From positions 1-10,951 of the forward strand of contig QMZP01000012.1 in NCBI GenBank assembly GCA_003663225.1: DNA of 10,951 bases, in the 5' to 3' direction. This DNA is from Candidatus Aenigmatarchaeota archaeon (GTDB lineage: Archaea > Aenigmatarchaeota > Aenigmatarchaeia > QMZP01). Below are positions 1-10,951 of the stretch, one piece after another. A model generated the notes under the pieces. The model worked only from the letters and a program-made list of their open reading frames with translations, did no database searches and was not told the DNA's origin. Each line of letters begins with the position of its first letter. Position 1 is the first letter of the stretch. Position numbers and translations under genes: made by a program.

Positions 1-2108
1 ACTGAAGCGATTTCGAATGGGACCAAATTCGGGAAGAACTGGCGGGTCAGCGGCAGAATCTGCGGCAGCGTCACACCAAGCGCCGTCGTTGTCGTGGCTG
101 CTTCCATCACGCGGTGCTTCGTGCAGGCCTCCAGATATTCGGGGTAGTTCTCCTCGTAGTTCGCAAGGACATCCTCGAAGACTTTGCGCATACGGCCTTC
201 GAGACCTTCAAGCAGAGCGGCCTTGACTTCGGCCACCGTTTCAGGCCGCTCAGCAATTTCGCCCGTGGCCGGATGCACCCACAGGTCGCGATAATGGCGC
301 TTCCGGCGCTCCTCGGTGATGATGCCCACACCGGCATACTCAACCCTCTTCGCCAGAAGCACCTTCTCAACAAGCGGCTTGAATTCCTCGAAGACCTTGT
401 CAACTTCTTCCTTCGAGGATGCCCGCTCGACGGCCTGCACGATAGGCGCACGCACGTTCTCTTCAAGGTCTTTCAGTTCGGCTTCAATGCGCTGCCGCTT
501 GTAGGCCGCCAGTTCCGCAGCCTTCAAGGCCGCGTCCACAACCTCAGTGGCCTTAGCAGCAACCTTCTCTTCAAGCTGCTTGGCGATTTCATCAACGTTT
601 ATCTGGGGCTCAGGCTGGGTAGCCTGTTCCTGAGCCTGCTCTTGAGCCTGTGCCTGTTCAGCCTGCTTAGCAACCTTCTCTTCAGCCATCGCCTCACCGC
701 CGGGGTCTCCACCCCGGCTCGCTTCTTGTATGGAGTTTTCAGTCTGGCGGTCTTCGTGCTCAAATTCAACTTTCAAAGTCTGAGTCTCTGCGGCACCTCG
801 CAATACTATGTCAACTGCATCCCACACATAATTCTCTACAACTTCATAGCCCAAATCTTTGCCGTCTTTATCCTTGGCAGGCCGGAGTTCGCCATACCCA
901 CGCAGTGACCATTCTGTGTTAACGCCATGCTTCCACAGCGTGATGATTTCCTTACCGGCCTGCGTGGGCACGACTTCGCCTTCAACAACGATGTTATTGC
1001 CCCTCAGGCCTGCCGCTGTGAATTTTACAGCAATGTCAAGGACTGAACCACTGCTGAACAAGCTTGGATGGTCGGCCAAACCGACAAACTTCCCTGCCTT
1101 GATAAGCTCGTTTACGCGAGGCAGGTTCCTGACGATTTCCTTCTTCGGATAGAGCCGGTTGTTCTTATTGACCTTATTGACCTGGCCGACGATGGCCTTA
1201 AACCGAACCCGGCCTTCATCAGCTTCCTGCAGCTCAAGAACTTGCCCTTCAAACGAGTCAATAAGCTCAACGCGATTGTCAGACTTGAATATCTGTGCCT
1301 TTTCTTCGGCCTCAGCGATAATAAGCCTGCGGAAGTCCTCAAACTCTTCGGGCACTTCAAGCTGCTGGGCCTGAATAGCTATGCTTTCGCACTCTTCGTA
1401 GGTGCCCGCTTTCAGCAGTGCTTGGGCAAGAGACTGAAGATCAGAAGGCACCAGTTCGTCTTTGGGTTTCTTATAGCCGTAGTAGCCATACTTGCCGAAA
1501 TACGGGCACTTGTATTCCTTGGCATACTTGCAGTTCTTGGCTGCTTCAGGCGGCCCCTCACCTTTCTTGGGCGGATAGCCATAACCCTTGGCAGCCGCTG
1601 GACACTTCTCTTCGTCGCCCGCATACGGGCACTTACCCTTCAGTTTGCCGTAATCAACCTTCTTGGCTTCTTCGGCTCCCTGCATCGGTGTACCACACTC
1701 CGGGCACTTGAATTGATTGCATGGCGTGCCCCGTTCGTGTTTCATTTTATAGCCACATTTGGGACAGACGCAATATTCCACGCCGCCATCGCCCTTCTTG
1801 GGCTTACCGGCCCCTTGGCCTGTCCCACACCGGCCATCAGCATCCTGTTCTTCTTTGCGCAGCAGCCTGTTTGTCATGGTATCCAATGCGTCCACCTCAT
1901 TATGTTTAATGCCTCGCTTGAGAAATTCTTTCACAACAAGCAAATGCCTGTCAAGTATCCCACGGCAAGTCATATGTTCACTTTTGTTCGCCATGTCGCG
2001 TTCACACTTCAGGTTGACCCACCAGCTATGCAAGCGCCGGTGAATACTGCGCAATTCTTCATCCGGCGCTTTGGCAACGTTTTGTGGTGTAATCTCAGCG
2101 TATTTCAT
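1..2108 (-). CDS. Prohead protease - scaffold - major capsid polyprotein (3'-partial)
   Basis: The frame is open from ATG 2108 to the window edge (702 codons, no stop). Residues 10-75 form a helical domain with a LHRRLH-like pattern (IHRRLHSWW). Residues 113-142 are a zinc ribbon (CPKCG, CPECG). Residues 149-214 are a Cys/Tyr/Gly-rich region with two KCPY repeats. Residues 280-450 match T4 gp21-type prohead proteases: NNRLYPKKEI (316-325), GLADHP with probable catalytic His347, and WSLRGYGE with probable catalytic Ser401. Residues 474-640 are Gln/Glu/Lys-rich and helical, as expected for scaffold. Residues 670-702 resemble the N-terminus of mature T4 gp23 (PLTRQFFPNLVPFEIAS). In T4 these are separate genes 21, 22 and 23. 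The protease would cleave scaffold and shell during head maturation. No clear Shine-Dalgarno precedes ATG 2108, which follows the previous stop by three bases, so translational coupling is likely. The protease call is strong; the capsid call rests on about 33 residues. Confidence 0.85.
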   Translation of the reverse strand, partial: MKYAEITPQNVAKAPDEELRSIHRRLHSWWVNLKCERDMANKSEHMTCRGILDRHLLVVKEFLKRGIKHNEVDALDTMTNRLLRKEEQDADGRCGTGQGAGKPKKGDGGVEYCVCPKCGYKMKHERGTPCNQFKCPECGTPMQGAEEAKKVDYGKLKGKCPYAGDEEKCPAAAKGYGYPPKKGEGPPEAAKNCKYAKEYKCPYFGKYGYYGYKKPKDELVPSDLQSLAQALLKAGTYEECESIAIQAQQLEVPEEFEDFRRLIIAEAEEKAQIFKSDNRVELIDSFEGQVLELQEADEGRVRFKAIVGQVNKVNKNNRLYPKKEIVRNLPRVNELIKAGKFVGLADHPSLFSSGSVLDIAVKFTAAGLRGNNIVVEGEVVPTQAGKEIITLWKHGVNTEWSLRGYGELRPAKDKDGKDLGYEVVENYVWDAVDIVLRGAAETQTLKVEFEHEDRQTENSIQEASRGGDPGGEAMAEEKVAKQAEQAQAQEQAQEQATQPEPQINVDEIAKQLEEKVAAKATEVVDAALKAAELAAYKRQRIEAELKDLEENVRAPIVQAVERASSKEEVDKVFEEFKPLVEKVLLAKRVEYAGVGIITEERRKRHYRDLWVHPATGEIAERPETVAEVKAALLEGLEGRMRKVFEDVLANYEENYPEYLEACTKHRVMEAATTTTALGVTLPQILPLTRQFFPNLVPFEIAS
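621..665 (-). repeat. Gln/Ala/Glu low-complexity repeat in scaffold
   Basis: Codons 482-496 encode QAEQAQAQEQAQEQA through repeated CAG-GCT-type codons. Such low-complexity, soluble, helical composition is usual at the start of phage scaffold domains. A 16-base word (plus strand AGCAACCTTCTCTTCA) also occurs on either side, at 558-573 and 669-684, which suggests local duplication of an EEKVA-coding unit. Confidence 0.6.
690..699 (-). promoter_or_regulatory. Internal ribosome binding site at protease/scaffold junction
   Basis: On the minus strand the ten bases CGGTGAGGCG precede an in-frame ATG at 689-687 (Met474 of the polyprotein). GGTGAGG is Shine-Dalgarno-like but only 2-3 bases from the ATG. 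The following residues, MAEEKVAKQAEQ, begin the scaffold-like part. Separate translation of scaffold plus capsid from here is an inference, by analogy with nested scaffold starts such as lambda C/Nu3. Confidence 0.4.
700..717 (-). promoter_or_regulatory. RNA hairpin with GGAG loop before internal scaffold start
   Basis: The transcript reads CCGGGGT-GGAG-ACCCCGG: a perfect 7-bp GC-rich stem with a four-base GGAG loop, ten bases upstream of the internal ATG at 689. There is no U tract, so it is not an intrinsic terminator. It lies in the codons joining protease to scaffold (residues 464-470). It may set the ratio of full-length to internally started product; that role is inferred. Confidence 0.5.
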
Positions 2109-2111
2109 GGC

Positions 2112-2300
2112 TTACAGCATATGTTCAATCAGCCTTTCGCAGGCCATTCTGGCAACTTTGAAGTCGCGTTCGGTATCATAACCGAGTTCCCGAAGTGTCT
2201 TCTCAATTGCAGGCCAATGCATTGCCACAAGCTCAGATGCTGCCTTTTTCTCGGCTTTTTGCCGCAGTTTCCTGAGAAGCAGTTTCTCAAAGAAGCCCAT
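2112..2300 (-). CDS. Small basic helical protein (62 aa), unknown function
   Basis: I do not recognise this gene. The protein is 62 residues, mostly helical and Lys/Arg-rich at its N-terminus (MGFFEKLLLRKLRQKAEKKA), with a more mixed second half ending ACERLIEHML. ATG 2300 is chosen because GAGGGGG (2317-2311) lies ten bases upstream; a start at 2339 would add 13 residues read from the Shine-Dalgarno region itself. It begins one base after the stop of the membrane protein gene, and its TAA is followed after only three bases by the ATG of the polyprotein, in the same frame. Its place between portal and protease matches the T4 prohead core genes 67 and 68, so a minor core role is possible but only positional. 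Confidence 0.6.
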   Translation of the reverse strand: MGFFEKLLLRKLRQKAEKKAASELVAMHWPAIEKTLRELGYDTERDFKVARMACERLIEHML

Positions 2301-2301
2301 T

Positions 2302-2655
2302 TTACACTCGCCCCCTCGACCATTCGTATGCCATGCCAAGCAAACCTACTGAGGCCATACCGGCCCAGAGCACAGCAGCCGTGTCACCATAAGTCAAAAG
2401 TATGACAACAAAAGCCACGCCGAACGTCAGCACGCTTAGCACCGCATAGGCAATATTGAGATATTTCATGTCCACCGGATAGGGCAAGCTCGCTTTATGA
2501 AGTGCCACAAGCACCATGGCAAGCCACGCCGCTGCCACTATGCCATAAGCTATGACGCCCCAAACACCACAGACCTTCTCCGTTGTAGCCCAAACCGAAC
2601 CGAGAGCCCACAGGAAGGCCCCGATGACGAGCACCAAATAAATCTTAAGCCGCAT
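2302..2655 (-). CDS. Four-helix membrane protein (117 aa)
   Basis: This is a very hydrophobic 117-residue protein with four likely membrane segments, at about residues 4-23, 29-51, 65-88 and 90-109. The tail is short and charged (YEWSRGRV). It has no recognisable catalytic motif. Small multi-spanning proteins in phage late operons are often holins, but four segments and no clear holin motif leave this open; it could also be a membrane or superinfection-exclusion factor. The start is supported by AGGAGG (2670-2665) nine bases before the ATG. The stop is one base from the next start, so the two small genes are probably co-translated. Confidence 0.7.
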   Translation of the reverse strand: MRLKIYLVLVIGAFLWALGSVWATTEKVCGVWGVIAYGIVAAAWLAMVLVALHKASLPYPVDMKYLNIAYAVLSVLTFGVAFVVILLTYGDTAAVLWAGMASVGLLGMAYEWSRGRV

Positions 2656-2664
2656 TCCTTATCG

Positions 2665-2690
2665 CCTCCTCTGGCAACCTTCCGTTGCCA
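2665..2690 (-). promoter_or_regulatory. Hairpin plus strong Shine-Dalgarno before the membrane protein
   Basis: The transcript has TGGCAAC-GGAAG-GTTGCCA (2690-2672), a perfect 7-bp stem with a five-base loop, and AGGAGG begins two bases after it (2670-2665). It sits in the 51-base gap after the ligase-fusion stop. No U run follows on the minus strand. The plus strand has a short ATTTTA after it, but no plus-strand gene exists to terminate. It could be a processing or translational control element; the function is inferred. Confidence 0.45.
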
Positions 2691-2706
2691 ATTTTATGAC
2701 AAAAGC

Positions 2707-5700
2707 TTAGCTGAAGTCCACCCTTGGTTCGTCGAAGAATGGTTCAACTTTGTCCTCCCAGTTGACGGGCAATAGGTCCTTGAGCTTGGTCTTAGCAAGA
2801 GCTTCACAGGCCAGCGGATTCCAAACAATCCAGCCACGTTCCTGCTTGGCCTTTTCTTCTTCCTTTTCTTTGTTGTGCGTGAGGATGTAGGGCGTCTGGT
2901 CTTTAGGCCGACGACCAAGCCATGTCCACTGCCCCTGCAGGTTGACCTTCGTCCAGATATAACGGCCACTCAATTTCTTGTTCCTCTCGAATATCAAGAA
3001 CACTTCGTGGAAGTCGTGCTTCTGGACGCCAAGGATGGCCTGGCCTTTGTCCACGAGGTAGAAGACAGCAGCCGTGTTCTTTGTGGCCCCCACATCACCA
3101 GGCGGCGACCATTCATATTCGCCCCAGTCAACCAGCGTAAGCCAGCCATAGGGCTGGAAGTATTTGAGGGCAGCAGGCCATTGTTCGGCCCCCTCGATAA
3201 ACTTCTCTTCGCCGAGTTCTTCTATGTGCTTCGGGTCGTCCATGAACTGTAATGCACTGCCCACCACAGCCTGCGTGATGCCCAGCAGAAATTCACGCTT
3301 GGGCGGGGCTTCGATGCGCAAATCACCGTGACAATTACCACGCTGCACTATACGCTTAAGGTCGGCCACTTCAATCTCGCCGGGGAATTTCTTATCGAGG
3401 GCCTGATTGATGATGCTACTGACTTCGCCGGGCTTAGCAGCCCGAACCTTCTGCTTGAGCTCTTCCACAGGGATAGTCAACGTTGCCAGGCCAAATTCCT
3501 TCCAGACCTTCTCGGCCTCTTCGCCACCCTGCAAAAGTATCTTCTGCACACGCTTAACCGTATCGGGCATCATGATGCCCCGAACATGATGCTGATAGCA
3601 GAACTTGTTGGGCTCGTCGTCCTGTTCAACTTCCTGGCCGTCTATCTCAAACCAGAAGCGCGAGAGCACATCATCATCGCCGCCCTCGCCGCCTTCATCA
3701 TCTTTGCCCTTCTCCGGTGGGATTTCTTTGTCAGTTACCTCTACAATCTCGCCAACTGTTGCCTGTTCATCTGAATCAGCAGGAGCCGGTTCAACTTCCT
3801 CGGCCTTCCTTGTGCCGTACTTAGCCAGCTTCTTAGCGAACTCCACAGAGTCGGGTTCTTTCTCTTCGGGCTGGATGTTCATCACTCGCGGCTTTTCCCA
3901 AGAGATGTGTTCCTTGCCATCATCACCTTCCCAGACATTTATATTGTCAACCATGACAGAGATAATTTCGCCAAGCTTGGCCGGACGTTCCATCTCCACA
4001 GCATAAGTTGAACCATATGCATATTCACCCTTCTCACGCCTCGGCCAACCAGGAGCCATCTCCCATTCATTTTCTGTTTCGAGGTCTTTGTCGGTGACTT
4101 TGCGCTCAGCTTCAATGGCTTGGTAGCCACCGGGTGCTTTCAAGGCACAGCGATACTGATACGTGTTGTCTTTTCCGGCAATTTTGCGGCGACCTATGAC
4201 TAAAGTGTGGATTTCTTTTCGAGTTTTGCACTTCGCCATGTAGACAGTGCCGCCGTCCAACTCGTAAGTCATCGTATCAAGCTTGCACACCATGCCCTCG
4301 CTGAACGAGAAAGAGGAGGCCCAATTCCAGTGTTTGTAGAAGGTCTCCTTGCTATCGGCCACACGATTGGGGATGAGAATGAGTCGCTTCTTAACCTCTG
4401 CGCTGGCCTTGCTGAAAAGTTCCTTGAGGCGCTTAAACCGTTCTTGATAGGGCTGCTCGTGTATGTCTTCGCCGTCTACATAAACAAGATCAAAGATGAA
4501 CCAGCGAATGTCTTCGTTGCTCAAATCTCGCTTGCCGCCCCAGATAGCAGCCATGTCCTTGCGAGGAATGACCTTGCCATTCTTATACCAGACGATTTCG
4601 CCGTCAAAAACGATGCTATCTACGTCAGCGTCTTCGCACCATTGCTTCATCGCTTTAACAAGCTGGCCGAGATACTGGCTGCGGTCACGGGCACGGTCTT
4701 CTGTGAAGATACGAACTTGCTCGCCGCCAGCCCAAACATGCCCCTCGCAGTGCGTACCATCGATCTTGGCTTGGCAGTAAATCTTATGGCCCTCTTCAAT
4801 GAAGCGCTTGGCCCAGAATTCCCAAATCTCATCAATAGAGAAAAACTCTCGGCCATGATAGGAAGCACCTGGCTTCAGTAGCTTGAAGAACTGCCCCGGC
4901 TTAATGGCCTGGGCTTCATATACGAACCAGAAGGGCCGCTGCAGGTCTATGCGCTCATAGCGCCATTTGATGACATAGGTGCCTTCTTCAAGTTCAAGCA
5001 AATCATCGGGCGTCAGGATGATTTCATAGGGCACGACCTTCACCGGTTCGGGGTAGTCATATTTTTGCATTAGGGCAAGGCGGTGCTGGAGAGGCATGTT
5101 CCAGGCCTGGGCGTCCTCATGGTAAAGAAGTTCACAAATCCAGAAGTTTTCCCCATCCCATACGCCTTCCCAGATGGCAACCTGTGGTTCATCCATGCGC
5201 CAGAAGGCCAGGGCGAAGTTGCTCACCGAGGGGTTGTCTTCTACCACTTCACCTTCGTTATTGAAGACAACGATTTTCTCGCCAATCTTGTGAATCTGGT
5301 AACGTTCACCACGGATAAGATGCTGGGCCACCACGGGGAATTTGAATGTCCCTACGCGACGCCATGGGCCAATTCTGACGAATTCCCCCGGCCTGACGAC
5401 GCCATCGGGGTGGATAAGCTGCCTTTCAGGCCGCCGGATTAGCACAACGTCATAAACAGGCACATAGTCTCCATGCGGGCCAGATTCATCATGCACCAGA
5501 TGGATGGGGGCGCCGAGAACCTGTTCAAGCTTGCCTGATACGGCGTCCAGCAGTTCCCAGGCCCCTTCACTGCGGACGAGAAGGTCTATATCATGGTAGT
5601 CTGTGCGTTTAACGGAAGAGCCGATTTGAAGGACAGCCTGCTTGGCGACGGACACAGCCAGAGGGAATTTATGCCACAGGTCATCCGGCTGCTCGTCCAG

Positions 5701-5826
5701 TTCATCAATGCTTATGTGGCCCAAGTCAAAGATGTCCATGAGCAGCCGGGCAAGCTCATGCAGTTCTTTATCCTGCTTTTCATGGGCTTCATCGTGTAGC
5801 TGCTGTATCCGCTCCAGCAGGCTCAT
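2707..5826 (-). CDS. Nucleotidyltransferase - ATP-dependent DNA ligase - phosphoesterase-like fusion
   Basis: This is a 1039-residue multidomain enzyme. Residues 60-130 carry a pol-beta/MNT nucleotidyltransferase signature: GSS at 69-71, DID (Asp79, Asp81) and YDVVLI (Asp126). Residues 155-260 resemble a ligase adenylation domain that has lost its lysine. Residues 350-540 hold a full DNA ligase set: motif I KIDG (Lys354), motif III FDGE, motif IIIa FIFDLVYVDGEDI, motif IV EGMVCK and motif V KCK; an OB-like region runs to about 660. An acidic low-complexity linker spans 675-721. The C-terminal part resembles the LigD 3'-phosphoesterase domain: CYQHH (744-748), HGDLRIE (833-839), then KLSGRYIWTKV. 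It would join nicked or broken DNA ends after cleaning them. ATG 5826 is preferred over 5853 because AGGAGGG (5844-5838) precedes it; the gene overlaps the portal end. The ligase call is firm; the phosphoesterase call is tentative. Confidence 0.85.
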   Translation of the reverse strand: MSLLERIQQLHDEAHEKQDKELHELARLLMDIFDLGHISIDELDEQPDDLWHKFPLAVSVAKQAVLQIGSSVKRTDYHDIDLLVRSEGAWELLDAVSGKLEQVLGAPIHLVHDESGPHGDYVPVYDVVLIRRPERQLIHPDGVVRPGEFVRIGPWRRVGTFKFPVVAQHLIRGERYQIHKIGEKIVVFNNEGEVVEDNPSVSNFALAFWRMDEPQVAIWEGVWDGENFWICELLYHEDAQAWNMPLQHRLALMQKYDYPEPVKVVPYEIILTPDDLLELEEGTYVIKWRYERIDLQRPFWFVYEAQAIKPGQFFKLLKPGASYHGREFFSIDEIWEFWAKRFIEEGHKIYCQAKIDGTHCEGHVWAGGEQVRIFTEDRARDRSQYLGQLVKAMKQWCEDADVDSIVFDGEIVWYKNGKVIPRKDMAAIWGGKRDLSNEDIRWFIFDLVYVDGEDIHEQPYQERFKRLKELFSKASAEVKKRLILIPNRVADSKETFYKHWNWASSFSFSEGMVCKLDTMTYELDGGTVYMAKCKTRKEIHTLVIGRRKIAGKDNTYQYRCALKAPGGYQAIEAERKVTDKDLETENEWEMAPGWPRREKGEYAYGSTYAVEMERPAKLGEIISVMVDNINVWEGDDGKEHISWEKPRVMNIQPEEKEPDSVEFAKKLAKYGTRKAEEVEPAPADSDEQATVGEIVEVTDKEIPPEKGKDDEGGEGGDDDVLSRFWFEIDGQEVEQDDEPNKFCYQHHVRGIMMPDTVKRVQKILLQGGEEAEKVWKEFGLATLTIPVEELKQKVRAAKPGEVSSIINQALDKKFPGEIEVADLKRIVQRGNCHGDLRIEAPPKREFLLGITQAVVGSALQFMDDPKHIEELGEEKFIEGAEQWPAALKYFQPYGWLTLVDWGEYEWSPPGDVGATKNTAAVFYLVDKGQAILGVQKHDFHEVFLIFERNKKLSGRYIWTKVNLQGQWTWLGRRPKDQTPYILTHNKEKEEEKAKQERGWIVWNPLACEALAKTKLKDLLPVNWEDKVEPFFDEPRVDFS
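3565..3580. repeat. 16-bp perfect palindrome inside the ligase-fusion gene
   Basis: GGGCATCATGATGCCC is its own reverse complement. It encodes RGIMMP, immediately after the CYQHH motif, at the point where an insertion of about 85 residues separates the two halves of the phosphoesterase-like signature. It may be chance. Confidence 0.35.
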
Positions 5827-7291
5827 ATTCCTTCTCGCCCTCCTCTTCTTCATCGGGCTTGAGTTGCATTAAAGCATAGTCTATCCATTTCTCCAGGCCT
5901 TCGGTAGAGATTTTGCCACCTGTGGCCTGGAGCCACCTTTCCAGGTCGTCACGGCTGAGATGGAGGGCAGACCGGCCAATCACTTCAGCGGGTATGCCAA
6001 GCTTGGCCCAGACCATAGCCACATTTGCACGGATGGCATCAACCTGTGCCGACCGCTTGGTTGCTATCGGGCTGACCACGGGGAATATCATCTCATATTT
6101 GGCCTCCAGTGGATTGATGCCCTTCAGAAGAAGCTGAAGGTCGAATATCTGGCGAAGGCCGTGGGCATAAGCCATCTGCACATGACGGATAAGATACGCG
6201 AAGCTTTCTTGGGCTTCTTCGGAAGCCTTATCCACGAAGCTACGTTGCCCGACGCGCATGTTCAGGTATTCAAGCGGCACATTGAGGGCACAAATCAGTC
6301 GCCTCAAGTCCAGGTAGATGTCGTCAAGGTCGGTAAGATAGGGATTGTCTGCAGGTAGGTTCTCAACATCGCCATCAACAAACTTGCCGTCCGGCGTATA
6401 AAGTCGAGGCAGATAGTAATCCGTATCTACATTGGTGGGCGAACTCTGACCGACCATACGGAAGCCAGCAGAAGTGCTGTCGTAAGTAACCGTTGTGTCC
6501 ACGTCCATTTGTTCACGATACGAGTCAATCTTCCGGCGGACTTCATCGTAGTTGAGCTGTATGGGCACGGGGATTTTATGCACGCGCTGAGGATAGGCAC
6601 GAGTCAGACGGGCGATGGCGAGGCCGTCTTCTTTGGCCCGCAGGCGCTTCCATATGCCTGTGGCACATGCCAGTATAGGTTCGGCATAGGGCAGGCCCGA
6701 CTGCTTGCCAAAAGCAAAGTGAACAATCTGATACGGCCAGAAAGCTGCCAGAAGTTGGCCGGTATCACTATATTGCTCGTAAGCTGCTTCGCCGGTGAGG
6801 TTATACTGCATAACTTGCTTGGGGTCGCCTTTCTTCAGGTTGCCGTATTCATCCACATTGACCTGAATCTGGTAGCTATAGGGGAACTGCTTGAGCCGGA
6901 CGATTTCATTGTCCTCATTCAAGATAATCTCGCAGAACGTATTGCCATGCAACACCATGTCACGAACTATTTGAAAACTCTGCCATTGGAGCTGGGTATT
7001 CTGGAGCAGAGGCATTAGCACTTCAAGCTCTTCATCAGGGCCACGAAGGTCAAACCCCATCACATCGCCTTCGGGGAACATTGTAGCAAACCGTGCTATT
7101 ATATCGAGGGCACGGGCCACTATCGGCTCTTCGCTGTCCATATCGGTGAGGTCTTTCCAGATGGCTTGGCGGCTGTAGAAACGAACCCACGGCAACTCGG
7201 TCTGTTGATACTTGATGCCGACCTCAACACTCCGAGGTTTTTCTTTCTCCTTTTTCTTGAATAGCTGAGCAATACGGCGAAGGATTTCCAT
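5789..7291 (-). CDS. Portal protein, T4 gp20-like
   Basis: The product is 500 residues, a usual size for T4-type portals. Such proteins form the dodecameric ring at one head vertex through which DNA is packaged. Supporting segments are EEPIVARALDIIARFAT (54-70), the DMVLHGNTFCEI region (111-122), NVDTDYYLPR (287-296), the DLDDIYLDLRRLICALNVPLEYL region (321-343), and a helical C-terminal region ending in an acidic tail (479-490). The pattern of a DxDYFYLPR-like strand followed by a dD..Y...KLY.AL.VP segment is typical of gp20 relatives. The ATG shares one base with the TGA of the large terminase (TGATG), with GGAGG about 11 bases upstream, so coupling is likely. The C-terminal codons overlap the start of the ligase fusion by 38 bases. 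Confidence 0.9.
   Translation of the reverse strand: MEILRRIAQLFKKKEKEKPRSVEVGIKYQQTELPWVRFYSRQAIWKDLTDMDSEEPIVARALDIIARFATMFPEGDVMGFDLRGPDEELEVLMPLLQNTQLQWQSFQIVRDMVLHGNTFCEIILNEDNEIVRLKQFPYSYQIQVNVDEYGNLKKGDPKQVMQYNLTGEAAYEQYSDTGQLLAAFWPYQIVHFAFGKQSGLPYAEPILACATGIWKRLRAKEDGLAIARLTRAYPQRVHKIPVPIQLNYDEVRRKIDSYREQMDVDTTVTYDSTSAGFRMVGQSSPTNVDTDYYLPRLYTPDGKFVDGDVENLPADNPYLTDLDDIYLDLRRLICALNVPLEYLNMRVGQRSFVDKASEEAQESFAYLIRHVQMAYAHGLRQIFDLQLLLKGINPLEAKYEMIFPVVSPIATKRSAQVDAIRANVAMVWAKLGIPAEVIGRSALHLSRDDLERWLQATGGKISTEGLEKWIDYALMQLKPDEEEEGEKEYEPAGADTAATR
5838..5844 (-). promoter_or_regulatory. Ribosome binding site deciding the ligase-fusion start
   Basis: AGGAGGG lies 11 bases before ATG 5826, and GAAGG lies 3 bases before it. 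The upstream alternative ATG at 5853 has no Shine-Dalgarno, and its first nine codons (MKKRRARRN) are simply this purine-rich site read as protein. The site lies within the last codons of the portal gene, so the two genes are probably translationally coupled. Confidence 0.6.
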
Positions 7292-8820
7292 CAGAGTCTT
7301 CGCCTCCGTTTGGCCGCCACTATCGGCACTTCACCAAAAGTCATTGACGTGGTGGCCGCTGTATCTGCAAGCCACATCGCCATAATAATATCAGAAGTTT
7401 GTCCATAAGGAAACTCCCGCATTTCCTTTAGCCACTGGCATACTACGCAAGTCGGGTCGTCGGCATGATGCAAACACTGTTTGCGTGGGATAATCCACAT
7501 GCGATTTGCCATTTCAGCGTGAAGGCGAGGCAGGCCTTCATCGGGCGACCATTTCTGGCTGCCGGTGAATTGGCCCTTAACCGTAATCGGTTCGTTTTGT
7601 GCTATCACTCGTATCAAATCCACAAGGGCAGCCTGGTAACTGTTATTCTCCACAAGCACAAGCTGAGGTTTATACCGACGCCACAGGGCAACTATCCGAC
7701 GGGCAAGTTCTTCCGGCCCCATCTTGTCGCGGACGATTTCAACAGGCACCCTTACACCCTGCGGCGAAACAGCAATAACAAATATCACGCTATACGAGCC
7801 TTCCTTGCCAAGCGAAGCAGCAGGGTCTACGCCGATGTAAACCGGCCAGCTCTCTTCCCAACCTTCACCAAGCGCAATGTCGGTGCGTATGCATTTTTCG
7901 ATGTTCTCTTCGCTGAAGTAATCAGTTTTCCGCAACATACCCTGCAGCATAAATTGCTGGGCAAAGGCCACGGGGCTTTCCTTGCGCTTCTGTTCAAGCT
8001 TTTCAAGCGACCAGCGTTCCGGCCAGAGAGGCCGGGGATTGCCATCCTCATCATAGATGATGGCGGGTTTCTCCCACTTATACCAGCGCTCATTCTGGGC
8101 GTATTCCACGTAAATGTCCGGCGGGTCCCAAGACCAGTAAGTGCCTATCATGATGGCCCGGCCATTCTCATAAAGCGTATTCATCCAGTCGTTTTCAACA
8201 ATATACTGAATCTTGGGTATCATGCGGGGCTGTGTGGCAAAGCGAGCGCCTATGATGTCGTCGAAAATGATGATATGGGCACGACGGCCAGTTCCCGACG
8301 CCGTAACACTAAAAGCCTGCAACGTCGGGTCTTTAATGCCGAGGGCGGCATCCCGCTTGACTGTAAGCTTGTGCTTGGTCTCCTCAGCTTCCTCATCGAG
8401 TTCTATGTGTGGGAACACCTCTCGATAGTGTGGATTCTCCAAGATGTTGCGTTTGATTTGCAGAAAAATATCAATGGCAAGCTCATCGTCCCCGCACACG
8501 TATTTAATGCTAATGTTGGGGTTCTTGCCAATCATGTAGAGCAAAAAACAGACGATTGTCTGGGTTTTGCCATGCAAACGGGGGGCTATGATGAGGAGCC
8601 TGTCTATTGAGGGATTAAGGAGAAGCTGAAACCACTCTTTCTGGTGTTCGGGGACTTTCCAAGGGCGGCCCTGCTCATCCCGCATTACATACTCTGCAAA
8701 AGCAACTATATCCTCGCGGGCCTGCTGGATTTTGGCAAAACGAAGGGCTTCCTCAATCTGAGATAGCTGCTTCGCTATCTCCTCTGGGGACGGATTCAGA
8801 TTCGGCAATGAATTCGGCAT
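7291..8820 (-). CDS. terL: Terminase large subunit (packaging ATPase and nuclease)
   Basis: This 509-residue protein has a complete two-domain terminase. The ATPase has a Walker A at 80-86 (PRLHGKT) and a Walker B at 183-188 (IIIFDD). The RNase H-like nuclease has acidic residues at Asp332 (IGVDPA), Glu391 (LVENNS) and Asp477 (SDIIMAMW). It translocates DNA into the prohead through the portal and cuts it at the end of packaging. Before the third nuclease acid is a Cys/His cluster, C449-H451-H452-C458-C461, that could bind zinc. The C-terminus is basic (KRRRRL). The start follows GAGG with a six-base spacer. The first 23 codons overlap the end of the small terminase gene, a common terminase arrangement. 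Adjacent TerS and portal genes support the call. Confidence 0.95.
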   Translation of the reverse strand: MPNSLPNLNPSPEEIAKQLSQIEEALRFAKIQQAREDIVAFAEYVMRDEQGRPWKVPEHQKEWFQLLLNPSIDRLLIIAPRLHGKTQTIVCFLLYMIGKNPNISIKYVCGDDELAIDIFLQIKRNILENPHYREVFPHIELDEEAEETKHKLTVKRDAALGIKDPTLQAFSVTASGTGRRAHIIIFDDIIGARFATQPRMIPKIQYIVENDWMNTLYENGRAIMIGTYWSWDPPDIYVEYAQNERWYKWEKPAIIYDEDGNPRPLWPERWSLEKLEQKRKESPVAFAQQFMLQGMLRKTDYFSEENIEKCIRTDIALGEGWEESWPVYIGVDPAASLGKEGSYSVIFVIAVSPQGVRVPVEIVRDKMGPEELARRIVALWRRYKPQLVLVENNSYQAALVDLIRVIAQNEPITVKGQFTGSQKWSPDEGLPRLHAEMANRMWIIPRKQCLHHADDPTCVVCQWLKEMREFPYGQTSDIIMAMWLADTAATTSMTFGEVPIVAAKRRRRL

Positions 8821-9388
8821 CTATGGCCTCAGTTCCTGTTTGCTGAGTGGCACGCAGCAGACTCTGCAGTTCTTCAAGTTTTTGAACAACTTCCTGCCGA
8901 ACCTCCGGCGGTGCCTGCTGCAGTATCTGCACGTAGAAGTTAATTGATTGGGCAGGCTTTGTCAAATCATGAGTCTCCTCGGCTATAAGTCTGTAGGCTT
9001 TCATGAGGGTATCGGCAATCTTGGCCGCAATCCGGATGGCCTCCATTCTCTGCTTGGGCGTTGACCATTCTTCGCCAAGCAATTCATCGAGGGCATCCTC
9101 AAGACGGGCAGCTATCTCGTCAACTTTTTGAACTCGCAAGGGCTTGGCCGCCCGCTCAATCTTACTCATCAGTTCCTGTGCTTTCTCGTGGGCATACTTG
9201 ATTATCTCTTGGCGATACTTTTTGCGTAGGGTGCGAACCCTGCGTTCGGTCAAATTCCAGCCTATCTCACGGGCCAAATCAACTATCTCGCCTGCCTCTC
9301 GGCCTTCGGCGGCCCAGCGGATGAATAGTTGCTTGCGGCGTTCTTCTTCATCTAATGGATGTATTGCTTTAACAGGCGTCCCTTCCAT
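8753..9388 (-). CDS. Probable terminase small subunit (211 aa)
   Basis: The protein is almost entirely helical. Residues 18-62 look like a helix-turn-helix (FIRWAAEGREAGEIVDLARE, then LTERRVRTLRKKYRQEI). Two long charged helices follow (about 65-140), then an oligomerisation-type segment (PPEVRQEVVQKLEELQSLL) and an acidic flexible tail. Small terminases bind the packaging site and assemble as rings that regulate TerL; fold, size and location directly upstream of and overlapping terL all fit. I cannot assign it to a named TerS family, so the call is mainly context. The start codon has only a weak close Shine-Dalgarno (GAAG); a stronger GGAGGAG lies 14 bases upstream in a hairpin. The start overlaps the preceding gene by 37 bases. 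Confidence 0.75.
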   Translation of the reverse strand: MEGTPVKAIHPLDEEERRKQLFIRWAAEGREAGEIVDLAREIGWNLTERRVRTLRKKYRQEIIKYAHEKAQELMSKIERAAKPLRVQKVDEIAARLEDALDELLGEEWSTPKQRMEAIRIAAKIADTLMKAYRLIAEETHDLTKPAQSINFYVQILQQAPPEVRQEVVQKLEELQSLLRATQQTGTEAIDAEFIAESESVPRGDSEAAISD

Positions 9389-10023
9389 CTTCGTTTGGGC
9401 AACTCCTCCGGTGAGTTGATTATCTTCTTGCCCAATCTTACAGCATGGGCAAATTCCACGAGAACCCCAGGGCTGATACCGGCTATCAAAACAACATCGC
9501 AGAGATTAAGCAACCACAGGTCGGCCTCCAAGAAGACTTCCTCATCAAGCCGTCCTTTGGTTCGCTGGTCGAATTCATGAAACATCAAATGGACTGGCAC
9601 GGGAATGTGGCCGCGCTTCATTACTTCAATAGCTATCTTCTTTACCTGCTCGATGTTGGCCTCCGGATTGTCGGAATAAGGATGGCTGATGTAGACCAGC
9701 AAAGGGATGTCACTGCCCCTGCCCAGCAAGTAAGCACGCCCAAATAATCCAGCCAGCTTCAGTTTGGCATCCTCGCCGGAACGCAGTTGCTCCATAAGCG
9801 AGATATTCACACCATCTGCTGCTTCTTCTACAACCTCAACCCAACCCCGATACTTTTCTCCTGCTATCCAGTTGCCAATGCCATACTGTCTCTGGCCTTT
9901 GAGATAGCGTTCAAAACAATCCTGTGCTTCTTTGGCCGAGAAACCCAAGGCGGAATACAAGGAATGAAATGCCGAAGACAAAAAATCCGTGAATGCCCGC
10001 AGCTTGGACTTCTTGCTGAGCAT
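9352..10023 (-). CDS. DUF4406 / nucleoside 2-deoxyribosyltransferase-like protein
   Basis: The product is 223 residues. Residues 107-205 carry the DUF4406/deoxyribosyltransferase pattern: LLVYISHPY (108-116), a helix and RGHIPVPVH, EADLWLLNLCDVVLIAG (166-182), then SPGVLVEFAHAVRLGKKI with Glu190 as the likely nucleophile position. Known relatives cleave or exchange the N-glycosidic bond of deoxynucleosides or nucleotides; many phage copies are uncharacterised. Residues 38-105 have a YGIGNWIAGEKY segment and WVEVVEEAAD, reminiscent of all-alpha (MazG-like) NTP pyrophosphohydrolases, but the metal-binding acids are incomplete. ATG 10023 is chosen because AAGGAGG lies ten bases upstream; a start at 10065 would add 14 residues without such a site. 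The gene end overlaps the small terminase. A nucleotide metabolism role is the best reading, with substrate unknown. Confidence 0.7.
   Translation of the reverse strand: MLSKKSKLRAFTDFLSSAFHSLYSALGFSAKEAQDCFERYLKGQRQYGIGNWIAGEKYRGWVEVVEEAADGVNISLMEQLRSGEDAKLKLAGLFGRAYLLGRGSDIPLLVYISHPYSDNPEANIEQVKKIAIEVMKRGHIPVPVHLMFHEFDQRTKGRLDEEVFLEADLWLLNLCDVVLIAGISPGVLVEFAHAVRLGKKIINSPEELPKRRWKGRLLKQYIH
9400..9418 (-). promoter_or_regulatory. Hairpin holding the upstream Shine-Dalgarno of the small terminase
   Basis: The transcript reads CAACTC-ACCGGAG-GAGTTG: a 6-bp stem with a seven-base loop. It contains GGAGGAG partly in the loop and partly in the stem, 14 bases before the small terminase ATG. It also codes for the C-terminus of the preceding protein. 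Partial masking of the ribosome site is plausible but inferred. Confidence 0.35.
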
Positions 10024-10033
10024 CCAATCGAGG

Positions 10034-10040
10034 CCTCCTT
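10034..10040 (-). promoter_or_regulatory. Ribosome binding site for the DUF4406-like gene
   Basis: AAGGAGG, ten bases before ATG 10023, overlaps the last base of the upstream gene's TAA (10042-10040). It is the best Shine-Dalgarno in this part of the window and decides the start against the longer alternative at 10065. Confidence 0.65.
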
Positions 10041-10414
10041 TACAGCAAACTCGCCTCAACAACAAAACTTCCGGCCAGCAAACACAAACTCAAGCCATCA
10101 GGAAAAATATCATCACCGCTCGCTATAACAAGCCACATCTCAAAGTTGTATTCCCCGGCCTCGATAGAAGAAGTCTCAAACCGGATAGTAAACTCGCCAG
10201 TTGCAGCCGAGTCCATATCGCTGGACGCTAATTCTTGAGACACGATTTCATTGCCACTGTCATCCTTGACAATGAACTTAACTGTGGCATTGCTCAAATC
10301 CCACGGGTCGCCATTCAAGTAAAGCTTGAACGGCTGATAAAAGGTCGCCCCCTTGCGGATGACGTAAGTTTCTTCAATCGGCAACTTTGAGAAGCTATAT
10401 TCTGTCAGTGCCAT
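10040..10414 (-). CDS. Small Ig-like / BppU-type beta-sandwich protein (124 aa)
   Basis: The protein is predominantly beta strand. It begins with a short leader and KGATFYQPFKLYLNG, then DLSNATVKFIVKDDSGNEIV, GEFTIRFETSSIEAGEYNFEMWLV (residues 72-95) and a last strand GSFVVEAS. This alternation (permitted-input strand, a D-L-[ST]-x-A-T-V-x-F-x-V strand, then an aGeYnfe strand) is what is seen in BppU-like N-terminal domains of phage baseplate or tail-associated proteins. A structural or host-recognition role is likely but not proven. ATG 10414 overlaps the upstream TGA by one base (TGATG); GTG 10417 is an alternative. No strong Shine-Dalgarno is evident, so it is probably translated by coupling. 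Confidence 0.65.
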   Translation of the reverse strand: MALTEYSFSKLPIEETYVIRKGATFYQPFKLYLNGDPWDLSNATVKFIVKDDSGNEIVSQELASSDMDSAATGEFTIRFETSSIEAGEYNFEMWLVIASGDDIFPDGLSLCLLAGSFVVEASLL

Positions 10415-10950
10415 CACTTAACGCCCAGCTCTCTCCGGCTGGTCTTGATTCGAATCTCACACTTCTCGGTCGTCACAGAAATGTTACTTCGGGGAGCCGA
10501 AAAGTTCAAGGATTGTGGGGCAGGCCTGGTAAGTGGCTCAAGATTAACCAGCACCCAGTCGAGCAACGGTGTCTCTGACTGGAGTGTATCCTGCTTGGGT
10601 GCCAGTGTGAAACGGACAACATTTGGACCGCCGATTACATAATTAAGCCCTGTAATCGGTGGTTGTACTCCATTAGAATCGCTTGCCACCACATGCCAAC
10701 TCGCTCTACTGTATACCTCAACCTTCGTGACGTACCCGTAGCTTGGACCAAACGTCCCAGACCAGTCAATGGACGTGAGCCGCATCAAATCGTCCGGCTG
10801 ATACTGTAGCGTAACGGAACCAGCTTCGTAGCGGTGGGGTGTGAATTCTCCGCCATGTAGCGGCCTTTCTGCAATAACAAGGGCATCGAAGTGATATGCT
10901 CCACCCGCGCTGTCGGTCCAGATTTCCGTGCGGTGCGATGCAGGTTCTAA
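10414..10950 (-). CDS. Beta-rich structural protein, 5'-partial
   Basis: The frame is open from the window edge to TGA 10416-10414, giving 178 residues; the true start lies outside. It could begin at TTG 10788 or ATG 10785, but the upstream codons read as normal protein (AYHFDALVIAERP, GGEFTPHRYEAGSVTLQY), so a longer gene is more likely. The sequence is rich in Gly, Ser, Thr, Tyr and Trp with short strands (SYGYVTKVEVYSRASWHVV, NVVRFTLAPKQD, LLDWVLVNLEPL), as in carbohydrate-binding or tail/baseplate domains. I do not recognise a specific family. It is co-directional with, and overlaps by one base, the BppU-type gene. Confidence 0.65.
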   Translation of the reverse strand, partial: LEPASHRTEIWTDSAGGAYHFDALVIAERPLHGGEFTPHRYEAGSVTLQYQPDDLMRLTSIDWSGTFGPSYGYVTKVEVYSRASWHVVASDSNGVQPPITGLNYVIGGPNVVRFTLAPKQDTLQSETPLLDWVLVNLEPLTRPAPQSLNFSAPRSNISVTTEKCEIRIKTSRRELGVK

Positions 10951-10951
10951 C

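Follow-up and report, generated by a model that had tools for sequence, protein, structure and literature searches.

The window analysed here, a whole stretch of 10,951 nucleotides that makes up positions 1-10951 of a contig in a 942-kb metagenome-assembled genome (MAG, 63% complete) of Candidatus Aenigmatarchaeota, carries among virus head genes a single open reading frame (ORF) in which a nucleotidyltransferase (NTase) domain, likely of the pol-beta superfamily, an ATP-dependent DNA ligase and a LigD-type 3'-phosphoesterase (PE)-like domain follow one another. The same trio is found beside head and packaging genes in other viruses, and we give an even chance to the view that it constitutes a virus-encoded machine for the healing and sealing of DNA ends, which would be made together with the head, would probably be carried in the virion and would act on the entering genome.

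The ORF (2707-5853, minus strand) is unbroken and its translation counts 1048 amino acids (aa). Its likelier start is the second methionine (residue 10, at 5826), because a GGAGG motif lies just upstream; read from there, the protein has 1039 aa. By computation, the 5' end of the ORF overlaps the 3' end of the portal gene. The protein and its parts are as follows:

2707..5853, minus strand: NTase-ligase-PE protein, 1048 aa (1039 aa from the likelier start at 5826), of which an 86-kb virus contig encodes a copy with 98% identity
5356..5655, minus strand: NTase domain, likely of the pol-beta superfamily, residues 67-166 (GSS, DID, VYDVV), supported by a family profile (E 2e-33) and by profile A13
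4894..5355, minus strand: residues 167-320, which separate the NTase from the ligase domain and correspond to the 'second ligase' of an earlier note
3796..4893, minus strand: ATP-dependent DNA ligase, residues 321-686, with the full motif set, a PF01068 match, a predicted model and Foldseek matches
2827..3612, minus strand: LigD-type 3'-PE-like domain, residues 748-1009, supported by profile searches and hhalign, with its metal ligands intact and other residues in place of His84 and Tyr88

Domains of the protein

The earlier note on this DNA, made from the sequence alone, had described one ORF with the NTase carboxylates (GSS, DID, YDV), a full ATP-dependent ligase, a second ligase-like region and a C-terminal PE with CYQHH and HGDLRIE, that is to say a four-part enzyme. 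These motifs were all located, and NTase, ligase and PE stand as parts of the protein, whereas the second ligase-like region had to be given up: the stretch of about 167-320 contains no KxDG, matches no Pfam model, and is aligned by hhalign with the ligase profile over 10 linker columns, at 20.5%. Comparable stretches were found in the related loci L012 and L140.

The identification of the ligase is near certain. Its residues comprise K363 (in KIDG), FDGE at 416-419, FDLV from 454, SEGMVCK from 518 and AKCK from 540, and its homology goes past chance (PF01068, E 8.6e-19). The model predicted for residues 1-710 is reliable chiefly at 341-680, where pLDDT is mostly 70-92, and archaeal and human DNA ligases head the Foldseek ranking obtained with it, the best being 3rr5 (E 2.5e-17). 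The top NCBIfam match of the region is the ligase domain of non-homologous end joining (NHEJ) TIGR02779, at 62.3 bits and thus well under the cut-off of 227.75. Across the family, motif I has its Lys in 55 of 57 members, motif III its Glu in 52 of 57, and motif IV its Glu and Lys in 57 and 55 of 58, respectively; these active-site counts and those given below come from rows aligned by hidden Markov models (HMMs) from the 59 non-redundant loci of the census presented further on and from seven others, L012 and L123 being the same virus, counted twice.

As for the PE-like domain, its identification is also near certain, its activity being putative. It shows CYQHH at 752-756 and CHGDLRIE from 841, the two being separated by about 75 extra residues. 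The window PE stretch alone matched no Pfam model, and an early profile (A2) found no match in the PDB. A profile of six related viral PE domains from which the window was excluded (A6) has 3p4h (E 4.6e-5) and 3p43 (E 5.9e-4), both structures of archaeal PEs, as its first two matches among 177,635 PDB sequences, and is aligned by hhalign with nine cellular PE sequences at 97.3% (E 1.8e-11); the window-led alignment A4 reaches 88.7% (E 2.6e-6) against the same nine. Besides, of the 52 PE proteins compared with Pfam, 20 match LigD_N at E<=0.01, with a best E-value of 3.1e-9.

The homology of the C-terminal PE thus held, in the search of the PDB as in hhalign, whereas a fully canonical active site did not. 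In the PE of LigD, His42, His48 and Asp50 bind manganese, while Arg52, His84 and Tyr88 hold a phosphate mimic, according to the review PMC8656161. The viral family keeps Gln40 (58/65), His42 (64/65), His48 (65/65), Asp50 (65/65) and Arg52 (63/65), and both the His84 and the Tyr88 positions are replaced. Since the metal ligands are kept and these two positions are not, the viral PE should bind metal and would either use substitute residues or have another specificity. Other positions are common in the viral set, namely a Lys (60/75), a Pro (65/77), a Lys (59/81), a His (50/81) and a Glu (72/81). In a tree of 73 rows, one branch with a support of 100/100 and a length of 2.59 splits the 64 viral from the 9 cellular PEs.

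Finally, membership of the NTase in the pol-beta superfamily is likely, an assignment that stems from its motif and from the direction of all its PDB matches, no single score being significant. The window protein has GSS at 78-80, D88-x-D90 and a third Asp at D135 (the D of VYDVV). The HMM of the family itself gives E 2e-33 on the window, which is one of its training members; the window NTase stretch alone matched no Pfam model, and NTP_transf_2 is reached in one of seven family members (E 0.0024). Searched against the PDB, the 35-row profile A13 yields 54 matches up to E 10, every one of them a family X polymerase (pol beta, TdT and related, pol lambda), the best E being only 0.088. With the earlier 7-row profile A8, two designed repeat proteins came on top (E 4.3e-5 and 5.1e-5), and were discounted, since their scores add up four repeats, each domain of which has an E-value of at least 76. 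Within the family, the first Gly of the loop is invariant (55/55), the second position is Gly or Ser in 44 of 55, and the two Asp of the DxD are found in 55 and 54 of 56.

The structure prediction proposed in the earlier note for each segment supports the ligase, as seen above. For the PE, the AlphaFold model is of low confidence (mean pLDDT 61.5) and no proof of fold, with 3p43 ranking first in Foldseek (E 0.041) and 3p4h third (E 0.13); for the NTase part, pLDDT is below 50, which is no proof of fold either.

Spread of the trio

An 86-kb contig from IMG/VR encodes an NTase-ligase-PE protein 98% identical to that of the window, beside a portal and a protease. In order to count such loci, IMG/VR was scanned with the PE profile A10 alone, which retained 76 loci out of 161 pattern matches, and NTase and ligase were called with HMMs built here, in the PE ORF or within 6 kb upstream and 3 kb downstream; removal of near copies by 6-mer containment of the PE ORF left 59 non-redundant loci. 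The contigs of L013, L012 and G154, 3 of the 76, had fed the ligase and NTase training sets. Both NTase and ligase were found in the PE ORF or nearby in 60 of 76 loci (48 of 59 when non-redundant), and all three domains share one ORF in 33 of 76 (22 of 59). Among 9,177 reversed ORFs used as control, none matched any of the six HMMs. In some relatives, such as L012, NTase, ligase and PE are separate neighbouring genes, which is gene splitting within one conserved cluster, with no sign of artefact. The fusion beside portal genes, for which the earlier note proposed a neighbourhood search, is borne out by the 98% identical copy in a separate virus contig, by the virus ANMV-1 and by the census, and the same evidence rules out an assembly artefact.

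A tblastn search of 50,697 phage records gave one matching record for the window protein, six for that of L048 and one for the PE domain of L071, with the PE matched in ANMV-1 only. The L039 and L013 proteins matched 118 and 18 records; among the matches listed (30 of 118 for L039, 18 of 18 for L013), all but ANMV-1 match only the ligase, XkdF or phosphatase part. Compared with 100 relatives, the window protein gives 26 matches which, besides the window itself, concern parts of the ligase only. In genome contigs, profile A10 returned 28 stretches and three relatives, and profile A4 18 stretches and no relative. A scan of the host phylum with A4 gave matches in 5 of 156 genomes, of which that in G088 overlaps a cellular PE and that in G067 is weak. 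A scan with the ligase alignment A11, which gave 7 loci from 497 stretches, was left out of the census. Relatives also occur in MAGs, namely G154 (QMZU01000001.1, Candidatus Aenigmatarchaeota, in the same class as the source genome of the window), one of Archaeoglobales and one of Thermoprotei; the L011 locus may be bacterial.

Inteins were also met: intein-splicing and LAGLIDADG domains are present in 3 and 5, respectively, of 52 PE-bearing ORFs (A12 members), and the ligase match is split in some ligase ORFs (L100, L121, L133 and L135 among them), for which inteins are a possible explanation.

Head-module context and fused domains

All window genes that could be assigned to a family are viral in type and lie on the minus strand, and the place of the trio ORF between portal and prohead protease, as the earlier note had it, was recovered by family searches:

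5789..7291, minus strand: T4-like portal (PF07230, E 2.6e-19), overlapping the start of the NTase-ligase-PE ORF
7291..8820, minus strand: TerL, the terminase large subunit (phrog_38, E 1.2e-69)
8753..9388, minus strand: ORF at the small-terminase position, named by position only, no significant family match
3..2108, minus strand: S77 prohead protease whose C-end is the beginning of the major head protein (PF03420, E 2.4e-6; phrog_207, E 1.5e-21; phrog_138, E 0.011)
2302..2655, minus strand: 117-aa ORF, hydrophobic by eye, no family match
2112..2339, minus strand: 75-aa ORF, no significant family match

The last two ORFs precede the protease, whose own ORF has an N-terminal paired-helix (LHH) module and continues past the window edge. 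In its full counterpart, L003 4524-7487, the S77 protease and the major head protein seemingly form one 987-aa polypeptide, in which a cysteine-rich stretch follows the helical module. Just upstream of the terminase genes lies a nucleoside 2-deoxyribosyltransferase-like gene (9352-10065, minus strand; DUF7768 E 6e-13, phrog_355 E 1.2e-16). A second contig of the same MAG (G000:C126, 1857-3311) matches a related virus at 85-86% identity, so that the bin would hold at least two pieces of a virus of this kind.

Across the family, a head or packaging neighbour of any kind was found in 46 of 59 loci. A portal lies within 4 kb upstream in 25 of the 41 non-redundant loci with at least 2 kb upstream, as tested by chained phmmer at 1e-6; Pfam searches of the upstream ORFs of 10 of the 16 misses added three clear portals (L070, L089 and L099, of which L089, E 2.9e-9, and L099, E 2.3e-8, are under the curated cut-off), two weak ones (L092, L090) and five cases with none. 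A major head protein follows downstream in 30 of the 51 loci with room. The trio stays with head genes although the portals belong to different families. In 11 of 76 loci, the PE-bearing ORF ends in an XkdF prohead protease (Pfam S78_2 in L011, L037, L039 and L041, E 3.7e-24 to 2.5e-31).

Extra domains are present in some members, i.e. D12 adenine methyltransferase, another methyltransferase, PNK3P phosphatase, 2H phosphoesterase and metallo-beta-lactamase. The 1632-aa chain of L013 (6387-11285) joins PNK3P phosphatase, NTase, ligase, 2H phosphoesterase and PE, with what looks by eye like a second, degenerate PE-like C-end, and has a portal upstream and a head protein downstream. A D12 adenine DNA methyltransferase shares one chain with NTase, ligase and PE in L041 (4524-9143) and L048 (7838-11527), which suggests protection of the entering DNA besides its repair. 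The L011 protein (5916-9131) combines a ferritin-like domain (PF00210, E 1.4e-12), a PE-like domain and the XkdF protease, with no ligase match.

The paired-helix module, of 55-75 aa (LH..xH ... H..VV.E..RRGI.H), recurs in head-module proteins: its carrier is the protease protein in the window (1869-2108, minus strand), and the enzyme protein or a small ORF in relatives (L013 5971-6384 and 7254-7466, L012 2861-3058, L048 9551-9733, L037, L039 and L041). When 2,942 ORFs were scanned with eight training rows, it was met in head-module ORFs only, the loci being mostly head regions and the 86-kb virus record alone being covered whole. A glycosylase identity was considered for it and rejected, Pfam Pyr_excise staying under the cut-off (best E 2.5e-4, three of eight members) and the PDB giving no match; the module could be a head-targeting tag.

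Comparison with known systems

LigD combines three chemistries, i.e. 3'-end healing, nucleotide addition and sealing. Like the window protein, it gathers an ATP-dependent ligase, a 3'-PE and a nucleotide-adding domain in one chain; it has a primase-type (AEP) polymerase, whereas the window protein has a putative pol-beta-type NTase, and the viral proteins differ further by a PE without His84 and Tyr88 and by the place of their gene in a virus head operon. A LigD-like assembly of this kind, in the order NTase-ligase-PE, had been proposed in the earlier note and agrees with the domain searches, the LigD polymerase (TIGR02778, E<=0.001) being detected in none of the 34 genomes or records searched. 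The search for Ku in related genomes gave the same outcome, with PF02735 in 0 of these 34, some of which are perhaps fragments; the Bacillus subtilis control was positive for both.

The standalone archaeal 3'-phosphoesterases (3p4h, 3p43; PF13298) share PE homology and metal-ligand motifs with the viral domain, from which the latter departs by newly conserved K-P-W and QK..HE positions and by its fusion or linkage to ligase and NTase. The host MAG itself has a canonical cellular PE (139-aa frame, G000:C105), and cellular PEs pass the cut-off in 37 of 156 genomes of the host phylum.

Several disparate enzymatic domains per chain and the head context of portal-terminase viruses bring the family close to the polyvalent proteins of phages, for which virion-injected multi-domain proteins are an established idea and whose domains include Pol-beta NTases and 2H domains, according to passages of PMC5512222. 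In these passages, all three mentions of a ligase concern RNA ligases, the authors state that they never met their 2H domains with RNA ligases, and neither a DNA ligase nor a LigD PE is mentioned, which sets the trio apart.

A named relative, the 'ATP-dependent DNA ligase' AJP62006.1 of ANMV-1, has the same NTase-ligase-PE order and directly follows a portal. It is 27% identical to the window protein, lacks its long NTase-ligase spacer and has by eye an extra PE-like C-end. The ANMV-1 portal (L004 1913-3193) is mis-annotated as 'MutT-like phage hydrolase' (PF06381 E 3.2e-22, phrog_146 E 2e-30), and the term 'ligase' is absent, by a term search, from the main text of the ANMV-1 paper (PMC4372165). 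For mycobacteriophages, NHEJ is predicted to take part in the circularisation of the genome after injection, and Omega and Corndog encode an NHEJ component tied to it, as stated in passages of PMC3706429; these phages bring Ku, whereas the trio viruses, in which Ku was not detected, bring their own ligase and end-processing domains.

Possible roles of the trio

The computed results, i.e. domain homologies, conserved active-site residues, the conserved trio, its head-module location and the protease fusion, are those from which we infer catalysis, a DNA rather than an RNA substrate, encapsidation, ejection and circularisation. The PE-like domain, with a metal bound by His-His-Asp, would clear blocked 3' ends, the pol-beta-type NTase would add or fill nucleotides, and the ligase would seal 5'-phosphate/3'-OH nicks or joined ends. 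The protein would be enclosed in the prohead, released by maturation and ejected with the genome, so that the incoming linear DNA could be repaired or circularised ahead of host nucleases, without Ku. Enclosure in the prohead appears most likely because the gene stands between those of the portal and the prohead protease, and because the protein is, in some relatives, part of the protease polypeptide. Head carriage and action on the entering genome fit with the persistence of the trio among head genes, with the PE-protease fusion, and with the presence of a second ligase in two viruses: G175 and G183 have, besides the trio, a separate ligase ORF elsewhere in the record (547 and 582 aa). Carriage and action of this sort would also be in line with what is proposed for polyvalent proteins and for NHEJ in mycobacteriophages. 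The protease fusion and the second ligase likewise favour the suggestion of the earlier note that the protein may act on packaged or injected ends, for instance by sealing those made by the terminase. Per virus record, PF01068 matches once in 25 of 32, not at all in 4 and twice in 3, the third two-match record, G166, having one ligase split over neighbouring ORFs.

We would lend distinctly less than an even chance to the fuller proposal of a head-borne, Ku-independent end-joining machine in tailed viruses, at least archaeal ones, which would have evolved apart from LigD, by the joining of a pol-beta-type NTase to a DNA ligase and to an archaeal phosphoesterase with a rewired active site, and which would be freed by the prohead protease and ejected with the genome to heal and close it on entry.

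Several observations weigh against a virion-carried healing and sealing machine. At the His84 position of the PE, only 2 of 76 members have His, while 31 have Gln and 21 Glu; at the Tyr88 position, Trp is found in 76 of 79 and Tyr in one. Point mutation of His84 or Tyr88 inactivates the Pseudomonas aeruginosa enzyme, as reported in the review PMC8656161. The third NTase carboxylate, present in the window as D135, is Asp in just 26 of 54, and the motif I Asp of the ligase is kept in only 49 of 57 and lost in 8. By HMM, 11 of 76 PE loci have no ligase match; three of these (L106, L129 and L132) sit at contig ends, and in L132 a ligase was found at the far end of its 73-kb record. In the window virus, this protein and the protease are separate chains, and T4 gp21-type protease sites, scored by the T4 consensus, are at chance in the window protein (3 versus 2.07 expected, P 0.364). 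Lastly, PF01068 has a single match in the 86-kb contig, that of the ligase discussed here, which makes a replicative role possible there.

The rival that survives best, which we nevertheless consider rather unlikely, is action late in infection, inside the cell, at the packaging motor, where a protein that is not injected would seal nicks and clean ends of the concatemer for translocation by portal and terminase. The head-module location fits it equally, and so do the sole PF01068 match of the 86-kb contig and the lack of detectable enrichment in T4-type sites. It leaves unexplained, however, the fusion of PE and prohead protease in 11 of 76 loci and the DNA methyltransferase domains of some members.

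Repair of RNA (tRNA) seems improbable. The NTase would then be CCA-like or end-adding, the PE and its partners would heal 3' or cyclic phosphates, and the ligase would rejoin RNA cut by host anti-viral nucleases, as might be read from the PNK3P phosphatase and 2H phosphoesterase (PF13563, E 6.1e-7) added in the L013 chain and from Pfam RNA_ligase and mRNA_cap matches in 2 (best 3.6e-7) and 4 of 52 members. DNA_ligase_A_M, however, matches 19 of the 52 (best E 3.2e-27), Foldseek puts archaeal and human DNA ligases first, and the NTase profile is akin to family X DNA polymerases. Just as improbable is a plain replicative ligase of the virus, with accessory end-processing domains, that would be in the head operon by chance: the conserved place beside portals of different families, the fusion to prohead protease and the further ligase ORFs of two records speak against it, whereas the single PF01068 match of the 86-kb contig and of most virus records would be expected from it. 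Least probable of all, decayed domains retained for a structural or DNA-binding role, in an internal head protein, would account for the loss of His84 and Tyr88 in nearly all PEs, the variable third NTase Asp, the 8 of 57 ligases without the motif I Asp and the motif I variants KFGG (L041) and KYNG (L039 and L014), but not for a ligase Lys, a motif IV Glu, PE metal ligands and an NTase DxD that are nearly invariant.

Novelty and significance

No published description of the trio was found, as judged by titles and the starts of abstracts, in a search that left most subscription journals and bioRxiv preprints outside. Nor do passages of PMC5512222, PMC9503650, PMC8656161, PMC9894754, PMC10848311, PMC12934983, PMC4372165 and PMC3706429 mention the trio, its fusion to the protease or the altered PE. 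LigD chemistry and polyvalent proteins were already known; the combination of the trio, its wide occurrence, its joining to the protease and the change in the PE active site appear to be new, to judge from titles and from how the abstracts begin in the papers listed by the searches.

Should the preferred reading of a head-made machine for healing and sealing the entering genome be true, these viruses would bring a repair kit in the particle and would be independent of the host for the repair or closure of their genome on entry, by an end-joining route without Ku. It would also give a reason for a LigD-type domain being kept in virus head operons. The rewired PE active site is a biochemical question by itself, and the fate of injected archaeal virus DNA would become directly testable.

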